In this document: positions 2,431 to 5,126 of the stretch, piece by piece
Numbering within the stretch: the stretch's first letter is position 1
Layout: every line of letters starts with the position of its first letter
NCBI GenBank assembly: GCA_903871775.1
Contig: CAIQIA010000012.1
Span: 1 to 61,066, forward strand
Source of the DNA: an uncultured cyanobacterium
GTDB taxonomy: Bacteria > Cyanobacteriota > Cyanobacteriia > PCC-6307 > Cyanobiaceae
Reading direction: 5' to 3'
Length of the DNA: 61,066 nt
The notes under the pieces: model-generated
Databases searched by the model: none
What the model saw: only the letters and a program-made list of their open reading frames with translations
Told to the model about the DNA's origin: nothing
Program-made: the position numbers and the translations under genes

Positions 2431-3177
2431 ATGGAACTCTTTCAGTTCCGCCATTCCGCCTTCTGCGAGAAGGTGCGTCTGATCCTGGCGGCCAAGGGTC
2501 AGCCCTACGACGTGCGGGAGGTGACTCCCGGCATCGGCCAGCTGGAGCTCTTCCGCCTCTCGGGGCAGCGGCAGGTGCCGGTGCTGCTCGACGGCGGCGA
2601 GACCATCGCCGACTCCACCGCCATCGCCCTGCATCTCGAACGCCGCTTTCCGGACCCGCCTCTGCTGCCCGCCGACCCCGCCGAGCGGGCCCAGGTGCGT
2701 CTCCTCGAAGACTGGGCCGACACCGCCCTGGCCGGCGGTGCCCGCCTCGCCCTGCTGCAGGCCGCGGCCGAAGACGGCGCCCTGCGGTCGGCCCTGCTGC
2801 CCGTGGCCACCCCTGATCCCCTGCGCCAGATCTTTGGCGCCGTTCCGTCTGACCTGTTCAGCGGCCTCACCCCGCTGCTGCGGCCCGAGCGGCTGCAGCT
2901 GATTCAGGCCCTCGAGCAGCTCGTGGCCCTGCTGGCGGTGCGTCCTTATCTGGTGGGCGAACGGCCGACCCTGGCCGACCTGGCGGTGGCGGCCCAGCTG
3001 TACCTGCTGCGTTTCCCGGCCGTCGCCGGCCTCGACCTCGCCGCCCGCGGTGTGACCGGCATCGCCGACCAGCCGGCCTTCGAGCCGCTGTTCCGCTGGC
3101 GCGATGAGCTCTACCGCACCGTCGGGCGCCGGGTGGAGGGTCCCGCGGCCGAACCCGTCACGATCACCGTCGACTGA
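2431..3177 (+). CDS. glutathione S-transferase family protein
   Basis: A 248-residue GST. The N-terminal thioredoxin fold (1-80) includes [14 protein letters not shown], where the Ser/Cys pair sits at the usual glutathione-activating position, and the cis-Pro/SNAIL-like segment [18 protein letters not shown]. The C-terminal helical domain has the N-capping box-like [21 protein letters not shown] chose the ATG at 2431 because the fold starts at once; the longer open frame upstream has no family character. The cytoplasmic role is probably conjugation or peroxide detoxification; the specific substrate cannot be read. Convergent with the Get3-like gene. Confidence 0.88.
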
Positions 3178-3195: not shown

Positions 3196-4194
3196 TCAGC
3201 GGAAACGCACCTCCAGCCGTCGACCATCGACCCGGGCACCGCACGGTTCCAGCGGCTGCAGCACGGCCGGCAGGGCCAGCAGTCGCCGCTGGCCGCCCAC
3301 CTGCAGCTGCAGGTGCCGGCCGATCCGCCGCAGCTGCAGCCGCTCCTTGCGCAGGCCCGGCAGCAGCAGGGCCAGCACCGTTTCGTCGCCGTCCTGGCGC
3401 AGCAGCCGCATCGGTTCCCCGTCCCAGGGCCGCGCCAGCCACTCCGGCAGACCCTGCCCGCCGCCCACATGCACCAGGGCCGGGGCCAGCCGGTCAGCCC
3501 ATGACGCCTCCAGCCCGGGGTCAGGGGAGCCCTGGAACCACAGGCGGCTCAGCTGCACCCCCGCCAGGTGGAAGCCGGCGATGCGCTGGTCAAGCAACGG
3601 GTCACCGGCCAGCTCCGCTGCCTGGACCAGCTGCAGTTCGCAGCGGTCCGGATCCTCCAGCCGCCGTTCCAGATCCACCAGCTGCTGCCGCAGGTCCGCC
3701 GGCAGCCGCAGGCCATCGGCCGCCGGCAGCCGCAGGTCGAGCAGCGATTCCAGGCCGGCGATCGTCTGGCGCAGGCCCCCGAGCCGGCCCAGCAGGGGGT
3801 CGTAGAGGCGCTCGAGCAGCTCAGGCGCCGAACTCAGGCCCGAGAGCAGCCGCCGGGCAGGGGCGGTGGCCGGCAGCAGCACCACCAGCCGCCGGGCCCG
3901 GCAGCGGCTGATCCGATCGTTCAGCTCCAGGGCCAGCAGCACCTCCTCCAGCCCGGGAAGCAGCGGCAGCCGGTCGGCCGCCCGGGGGAACTCGAGCAGG
4001 TCCAGCCAGGGACCGAGCCCGGGCAGAAGGGTCTGCCAGCGCTGGTCGAGGGCCGCCAGCAGATCGAACCGGCCTGCCTCTGTCAGCAGCTCTTCGCCGG
4101 AGGCATCGAGCAGCTCGTCCTCCGGTCCCACTTGGGCGAGGGCCAGCCGCCGTCGCGCCTGGGGGTCATCCCCGCTGATCAGCAGCAGTCGCAT
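3196..4194 (-). CDS. Get3/ArsA-like protein without a P-loop (Get3d-like)
   Basis: A 332-residue protein that keeps the outline of the Get3/ArsA fold but not its nucleotide site. In place of the KGGVGKT P-loop the N-terminus reads MRLLLISGDDPQARRRLALA. Get3-like landmarks remain: LPGLEEVLLALEL resembles the PGIDEAMSFAE stretch and LPATAPARRLLSGL resembles the DTAPTGHTLR switch. The C-terminal ~55 residues (GLRKERLQLRRIGRHLQLQV onwards) look like the alpha-crystallin-like domain that marks plastid/cyanobacterial Get3d. A binding or chaperone role is more likely than ATP hydrolysis. It overlaps the end of the upstream DUF6816-like gene by 29 bp and is probably co-transcribed. Family assignment comes from motif memory only. 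Confidence 0.62.
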   Translation of the reverse strand: MRLLLISGDDPQARRRLALAQVGPEDELLDASGEELLTEAGRFDLLAALDQRWQTLLPGLGPWLDLLEFPRAADRLPLLPGLEEVLLALELNDRISRCRARRLVVLLPATAPARRLLSGLSSAPELLERLYDPLLGRLGGLRQTIAGLESLLDLRLPAADGLRLPADLRQQLVDLERRLEDPDRCELQLVQAAELAGDPLLDQRIAGFHLAGVQLSRLWFQGSPDPGLEASWADRLAPALVHVGGGQGLPEWLARPWDGEPMRLLRQDGDETVLALLLPGLRKERLQLRRIGRHLQLQVGGQRRLLALPAVLQPLEPCGARVDGRRLEVRFR

Positions 4195-4861
4195 CCGTCA
4201 GGCCCCGTGTGTTTCCACTCTGGGGGAGGGGAACCAGATCCAGGGTGAAGCTGTGGCTGCTGCCGGCGGCCACCCGCAGCCCGGCGTCCGGCGGGGGATA
4301 CACCGCCTGGCGCTGCAGGCCGCGGATGCTCCCGTCGTTCTGGAGCGCATAACGACTCAGGGTCTCCACCCGGCTCAGCCGCGGCGGCTGCCCCGGCCGG
4401 TGCAGCACCTGCAGGCTGAGCTCATCGGCCAGGAACAGGTCAGGGGCCGGCGTCGTGCTCTTCCGGCCGATCACCCGGCTGTCGAGCAGGCCGTCATCCG
4501 CCAGACGTGCCAGCTGGCGGTTGGGATCGGCGGGGTCGTCCTGCACGGCCCGCAGCCGTTCCCCCAGCACGGCCCGGCCGACGGCGTAGGCATTGGCCGC
4601 CCGCTCCCCGACCACGGCGCCATCGGCACGGGGGCGAAAGCGGACCGTGTAACGGGTCCCCTCGCTGTCCTGCACCTGCCAGGCCCCCGCGAACCAGTCG
4701 GGGTAGACCAGATCGCCCCCCCGGGGCCGCGCCAGCGGGGCCGGCAGGCGCCAGTCGGGCCACAGCCCCAGCCGCCCCACCAGGGGGTCGTCGGCCGCAG
4801 CCGCCGTCCCGGGCCAGGCCAGAAGCAGCGCCACAATGGCGATCACCAGTGCACGTGCCAT
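4166..4861 (-). CDS. exported DUF6816-like protein
   Basis: A 231-residue protein with a clear signal peptide: MARALVIAIVALLLAW, then PGTAAAADD with an AxA cleavage site near residue 22. The mature part (PLVGRLGLWPDWRLPAPL, DLVYPDWFAGAWQV) resembles the cyanobacterial/plant DUF6816 family, for which a thylakoid lumen location is plausible. No catalytic motif is visible. The start ATG shares bases with the start ATG of the divergent CRR7 gene (CATG at 4859-4862), so no intergenic space exists on that side. Downstream it runs into the Get3-like gene. Confidence 0.65.
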   Translation of the reverse strand: MARALVIAIVALLLAWPGTAAAADDPLVGRLGLWPDWRLPAPLARPRGGDLVYPDWFAGAWQVQDSEGTRYTVRFRPRADGAVVGERAANAYAVGRAVLGERLRAVQDDPADPNRQLARLADDGLLDSRVIGRKSTTPAPDLFLADELSLQVLHRPGQPPRLSRVETLSRYALQNDGSIRGLQRQAVYPPPDAGLRVAAGSSHSFTLDLVPLPQSGNTRGLTDATAADQRG

Positions 4862-5126
4862 GTCGGATCCCCTGCTCAGGGAACTCGATCATTACGTGGT
4901 GCTGGAGCCCGCGGCGGCCGAACGCATCCTCGATGCGGCCGCCACCGAGCAGTGGCTCAGGGGCTGGTTGCAGCGGCTGCCGGCACCGCCGGCCGATCTG
5001 GCCGACCTTCCAGACGACGGCAGCCGCGCCCGTCGGCTGCTCGACACCGCCTGTGAGCTTGAGCTCGAACCGGGGGTGAGCCTGCAGTGGTTCGCCGTCA
5101 GGCTCGAGCCGCCGGCTCGTCCCTGA
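4860..5126 (+). CDS. CRR7-like NDH-1 assembly/stability protein
   Basis: An 88-residue protein starting MSDPLLRELDHYVVLEP, which matches my recollection of the chlororespiratory reduction 7 (CRR7) family. CRR7 is needed for the chloroplast NDH complex and is conserved in cyanobacteria. The sequence is soluble and has no signal peptide. An in-frame ATG at 4836 exists, but the family N-terminus fits 4860. The start codon overlaps that of the exported gene on the other strand, and the 3' end overlaps shikimate kinase by 29 bp, so this gene overlaps coding sequence at both ends. Confidence 0.72.
   Translation: MSDPLLRELDHYVVLEPAAAERILDAAATEQWLRGWLQRLPAPPADLADLPDDGSRARRLLDTACELELEPGVSLQWFAVRLEPPARP

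Follow-up and report, generated by a model that had tools for sequence, protein, structure and literature searches.

The window, that is, the whole stretch of 61,066 nucleotides analysed here, from an uncultured member of the Cyanobiaceae, carries a gene for a protein of predicted Get3d type from which the ATP site has disappeared, and the loss of the P-loop is common to a whole clade of relatives that is probably maintained as an ATP-independent line. In the textbook picture, Get3 proteins carry membrane proteins in an ATP-driven manner. A Get3d lineage that is free of the P-loop and under selection, in a clade where ATP-using paralogues were not found, represents a natural experiment on which functions of Get3d need ATP.

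The gene and its locus

The open reading frame of the Get3-like protein is a real gene. Its ATG start is backed by the N-termini of orthologues, and its GC content at the three codon positions (0.88/0.47/0.88) is like that of the adjacent genes and normal for the genome. The 29-bp overlap with the gene of an exported protein and the vicinity of a CRR7 gene, both reported in the preliminary description of this DNA, are equally real, as the coordinates of the reading frames and, for CRR7, the profile match indicate. Translational coupling of the two overlapping genes is possible. All features are collected in Table 1.

Table 1. Features of the Get3-like gene and of its neighbours in the window
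Feature	Position	Strand	Basis and remarks
P-loop-less Get3d-type protein, 332 aa	3196..4194 (including stop codon)	-	ORF, Pfam, AlphaFold2 model, PDB match, family alignment
Former P-loop, residues 6-14, ISGDDPQAR where canonical Get3 has MTGKGGVGKT	4153..4179	-	Alignment, secondary structure of the model
Former switch II, residues 106-111, LLPATA for canonical DSAPTG	3862..3879	-	Alignment; Mg/catalytic Asp replaced by Leu
Helical region, residues 123-182, aligning with the client-binding part of Get3d	3649..3828	-	Model and alignment; large parts modelled at a pLDDT of about 60-75
C-terminal alpha-crystallin (ArsA_HSP20) domain	3202..3387	-	PF17886, E 6e-13; 50.8 bits in a second search; all-beta in the model
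Overlap of the upstream DUF6816 gene (exported protein) with the start of the Get3-like gene, 29 bp	4166..4194	-	ORF coordinates
DUF6816 protein, signal-like N-terminal segment	4166..4861	-	PF20670, E 3e-18
CRR7 gene, conserved neighbour of the locus	4836..5126	+	PF12095, E 1e-24
Glutathione S-transferase-like (GST) gene	2431..3177	+	Pfam and synteny in relatives

A predicted fold of the Get3d type

The C-terminus of the protein (residues 270-331) matches the family PF17886, ArsA_HSP20, with an E-value of 6e-13 and 48.6 bits against a cut-off of 22.5, while PF02374 (ArsA_ATPase) and NF050088 (Get3_fold_NosAFP) remain below their curated cut-offs in the window protein, with 11.8 vs 24.3 bits and 20.6 vs 325 bits, respectively. 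An AlphaFold2 model calculated with 13 relatives as input reached a pLDDT of 84.9 and a pTM of 0.84, the putative client-binding helices being its lowest-confidence part (pLDDT about 60-75). When this model was compared with the PDB by Foldseek, the top six matches were NosGet3d and Arabidopsis Get3d (AtGet3d), with an E-value of 1e-15 to NosGet3d. In addition, VIA-align gave Z-scores of 23.2 and 23.1 to NosGet3d (over 294 residues with 3.7 A and over 309 residues with 4.2 A, respectively) and of 19.1 to AtGet3d, and the remaining Get3 proteins did not exceed 15.7. As NosGet3d and AtGet3d rank clearly first in both comparisons, the predicted fold and domain order of the window protein are those of Get3d.

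At the sequence level, profile-profile comparison relates the protein to the canonical, P-loop-bearing Get3 of about 395 amino acids with 97.7% probability and an E-value of 2e-12 over 295 columns, so that the resemblance is not due to chance, and to the NosGet3d type with an E-value of 3e-11. A single-sequence search among fetched loci also retrieved the P-loop-bearing Get3 of about 395 amino acids from other cyanobacteria, with E-values of up to 4.5e-17. Judged in this way, the closest canonical relatives are the Sll0086-type Get3 proteins of about 395 amino acids and not those of the NosGet3d type. In the alignment, the canonical Get3 counterparts of the residue landmarks LPGLEEVLLALEL and ATAPARRLLSGL are LPGMDEIFGLVRM and APTGTALRLLSLP.

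Loss of the nucleotide site

As a joint alignment of 51 sequences reveals, the P-loop, switch I, switch II and A-loop are all gone. In particular, the N-terminal MRLLLISGDDPQARRRLALAQV occupies the place of MRLILMTGKGGVGKTSVAAATG in canonical cyanobacterial Get3, and the position of the P-loop reads ISGDDPQARRRLA where the canonical protein has MTGKGGVGKTSVA. That is, SGDDPQAR replaces GKGGVGKT, and the P-loop is missing from all aligned members of the family. Switch I, which is STDPAHS in canonical Get3, is DASGEEL in the window protein. In the model, strand 2-8 joins helix 11-21 through a turn of just two residues, which would leave no space for a P-loop. The preliminary description had proposed a Get3/ArsA-like protein with an alpha-crystallin-like C-terminus, of the Get3d kind and with its P-loop replaced; profile search, alignment and predicted structure now bear out each of these points.

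An aspartate beside the former switch I, D30, is invariant and kept across the family. This residue would fit the possibility that the old nucleotide pocket holds another ligand, such as phosphate, a metal ion, carbonate or a lipid, as a switch replacing ATP. The structure of AtGet3d, in which phosphate occupies the nucleotide site and a lipid-like density lies in the chamber (PMC10248533), and the accessory cluster described below, which is concerned with ions and carbonate, would fit it as well. However, the residues by which Get3 binds phosphate (the P-loop backbone and Lys) have disappeared and the loop is a two-residue turn, and a substitute ligand of this kind appears improbable.

Distribution, phylogeny and selection

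A search of 400 Cyanobiaceae genomes with a family profile detected relatives of the P-loop-less Get3 in 31 of them (about 8%), with strong matches over the full or nearly full length. The P-loop is missing from every relative that was read, and none with an intact P-loop was found within the clade. In a tree of 34 sequences, the P-loop-less proteins form one clade with a branch support of 100/100, and the window protein is the first branch inside it (support 94/93). In named genomes, a scan with the window protein alone as query gave no match, and the relatives were recovered with a narrower family alignment, the first one being too divergent; among viral contigs no relative of the protein was found. 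Six pairs of cluster members showed dN/dS values of 0.15-0.21, which describe members of the clade other than the window copy, as the latter stands alone on its branch without a close relative. These other members are under purifying selection.

Neutral decay of a Get3 gene might be considered, given that the catalytic residues are gone and that the window copy lies apart from the cluster in which its relatives are found. The loss of the P-loop, of the catalytic Asp residues of switches I and II and of the A-loop, though, is common to the whole clade and the dN/dS values of the relatives are low, so that local decay is rejected for the clade, whose members would rather represent a maintained ATP-independent protein. 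Moreover, in the window copy the frame is intact, GC by codon position is normal and the alpha-crystallin domain scores well. Decay is therefore a very improbable explanation; in a form confined to the window copy it is conceivable, because this copy has no close relative.

Canonical Get3 found no match in the window genome or in 201 Cyanobiaceae, in a search run without a positive control, and PF02374 gave in this family short matches only, those listed falling within the N-terminal part of the profile that covers the P-loop. In other families of cyanobacteria, by contrast, almost every genome matches a profile of alpha-crystallin Get3, mostly twice. Accordingly, the Cyanobiaceae appear to have lost both P-loop-bearing, ATP-using alpha-crystallin Get3 paralogues, and some of their members keep an ATP-free one. 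A heterodimer with an intact Get3 was also considered, and was discarded in view of the same search of the window genome and the 201 Cyanobiaceae.

The CRR7 neighbourhood

The presence of CRR7 had been taken, in the preliminary description, as a hint of thylakoid membrane protein handling. The adjacency and the 29-bp overlap in the window genome would indeed suit a protein that joins CRR7 and DUF6816 in handling membrane proteins of the thylakoid or of NDH-1, but the synteny of relatives contradicts it. Specifically, the order CRR7-DUF6816-GST (followed by rbfA where covered) is conserved in 24 relatives without the Get3-like gene, in which DUF6816 directly abuts the GST gene. The Get3-like gene lies between the two in the window genome only, and in the 20 other loci read it is found elsewhere. 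Since the conserved block stands without the Get3-like gene in 24 relatives, CRR7 is uninformative for the function of the latter and is not part of the system; DUF6816 is a conserved partner of CRR7, not of the Get3-like gene. Synteny thus leads us to reject the link through CRR7, and a role in thylakoid or NDH-1 protein handling retains scarcely any probability.

An accessory gene cluster in the relatives

In all 20 other loci read, the Get3-like gene is located inside an accessory cluster, the parts of which are not all present in each locus, partly because contigs end. In loci of named genomes (Vulcanococcus, Synechococcus, Cyanobium and others), these neighbours recur wherever the contig extends far enough. 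The cluster encodes a P-type ATPase with intact DKTGT, TGES and GDGIND motifs and with FDLGTG, and no CPC, in TM4, together with a paralogue whose DKTGT is replaced wherever the paralogue was found, and which is predicted to be catalytically dead. It further holds a beta-carbonic anhydrase in which the CxDSR and HxxC ligands are present, DUF1345, two DUF5132-like proteins and a number of small proteins with a hydrophobic N-terminus. Other small proteins are HMA-like and have hydrophobic segments toward the C-terminus (residues 109-164 of 174 and 144-164 of 201), a stretch that may be classified from its position as tail-anchor-like. The AlphaFold2 model of one of these HMA-like proteins matched HMA/Atx1 domains weakly (most probabilities 0.85-0.99, E-values of at least 0.07). 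Eight loci also encode a protein that has a putative HMA-like N-terminus and contains 17-21 GxxxG motifs.

Most of the small cluster proteins have no curated family name, Pfam and NCBIfam giving none for the HMA-like or glycine-zipper proteins, and literature searches found no paper on the cluster and none on DUF5132. A ferrosome was considered because of the P-type ATPase, and the literature gave no basis for this identification.

The Cyanobiaceae cluster is represented by loci L143-L162 and L175-L187. The glycine-zipper protein is located at L144:11561-12550 and has equivalents in L143, L145, L148, L149, L152, L153 and L155. The live P-type ATPase (L144:6950-9319), like the other cluster P-type ATPases, carries DLG where the CPC metal motif would stand, so that its ion is not known to be predictable from the P1B classes. 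The loci L183, L184, L185 and L186 are MAG contigs labelled Rhodopirellula, Deltaproteobacteria and proteobacterium which carry the cyanobacterial cluster, and they have the appearance of Synechococcus contigs that were binned wrongly.

The Get3-like gene and the cluster P-type ATPase occur together in 29 of the 400 genomes, and only one of the pair in 2 and 1, respectively; in other words, the association holds in 29 of 31 genomes with the Get3-like gene and in 29 of 30 with the ATPase (Fisher p 1.2e-40, uncorrected for relatedness, the genome counts not being independent events). Their presence is patchy within genera, which makes it unlikely that the link is a clade effect only. Besides the window genome, G266 and G175 are the genomes with only one of the pair. 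In these two, the contig with the Get3-like gene or the P-type ATPase also carries a DUF5132-like gene, and their single matches therefore look truncated by broken contigs. The one clear exception is the window genome, which is 96% complete and in which the cluster P-type ATPase and the DUF5132-like proteins were not found.

This near-perfect co-occurrence provides the ground for the main rival explanation, according to which the protein is no chaperone but a structural or regulatory subunit of the P-type ATPase machinery of the cluster, the Get3-like protein and the P-type ATPase paralogue, both dead, being non-catalytic parts with an assembly or inhibitory role. The pairing of an intact ATPase with a DKTGT-less paralogue wherever the latter is found would be in line with it, as it suggests that the cluster tends to keep dead enzymes. 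Nevertheless, the Get3-like gene and the ATPase genes usually lie on opposite strands and the window copy stands alone, with no cluster P-type ATPase found; a subunit role is thus possible, though on the doubtful side.

A proposed ATP-independent holdase or scaffold

The explanation that we favour, with confidence and doubt in about equal measure, is that the protein works without ATP, as a holdase or assembly scaffold for the hydrophobic segments of membrane proteins encoded beside it. As the nucleotide switch is gone, the Get3 cycle should be unable to run, and the protein would no longer cycle with ATP and would be constitutively closed. In this state it would shield hydrophobic segments of the membrane proteins encoded with it, or hold proteins together, and the tail-anchor-like HMA proteins of the cluster would be its foremost candidate clients. 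The known Get3 targeting cycle is ATP-dependent, and hence, as a counterpoint, loss of the ATP site could equally mean loss of client handling. According to PMC10248533, NosGet3d and AtGet3d, which bind a TA protein, are closed without nucleotide and enclose a hydrophobic chamber; from there, an ATP-free holdase or scaffold would be a short step. The window copy is a stand-alone, early-branching member that entered the gap between DUF6816 and GST. Because the gene is kept here without the cluster P-type ATPase and DUF5132-like proteins, the cluster proteins would not be its sole clients, and the client in this genome may differ from them, unless the cluster falls into the roughly 4% that the assembly lacks.

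A more speculative extension, which we put forward as tentative and rather unlikely to hold in full, is that the cluster forms an accessory membrane machine of picocyanobacteria, perhaps an ion or carbonate compartment, with the ATP-dead Get3d and the dead P-type ATPase as stable architectural parts. The Get3d relative would receive the tail-anchor-like HMA proteins without a nucleotide cycle, and the window gene would be an early branch of this ATP-independent line. As the gene is tied almost exclusively to a single gene cluster, candidate partners for direct tests can be named, and the link points to an apparently unstudied ion/carbonate cluster of picocyanobacteria with a dead P-type ATPase.

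Comparison with known systems

Calcyanins (ccyA), which are involved in intracellular Ca-carbonate formation, pair an HMA-like domain with glycine zippers. The cluster is reminiscent of them through its carbonic anhydrase and through the glycine-zipper protein of eight loci (17-21 GxxxG motifs), the N-terminus of which is putatively HMA-like; in the window genome, none of the cluster parts tested was found. The Sll0086-type Get3 proteins, which occur across other cyanobacteria and were not found in Cyanobiaceae, share their domain order with the window protein but, in contrast to it, have the GKGGVGKT P-loop, switch I, switch II and A-loop fully intact.

The closest solved structures, by a wide margin, are NosGet3d (All4481; PDB 3igf, 8egk) and AtGet3d (8elf), which share the fold with the window protein from the first to the last residue, alpha-crystallin domain included, at 16-20% identity. 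As in these two proteins, the window protein is without the A-loop. The Get3d proteins described in PMC10248533 keep a Walker A motif, albeit a deviant one, and both of those assayed there have ATPase activity. The window protein differs in that its P-loop, its switch Asp residues and the stretch leading from switch I to the core are missing.
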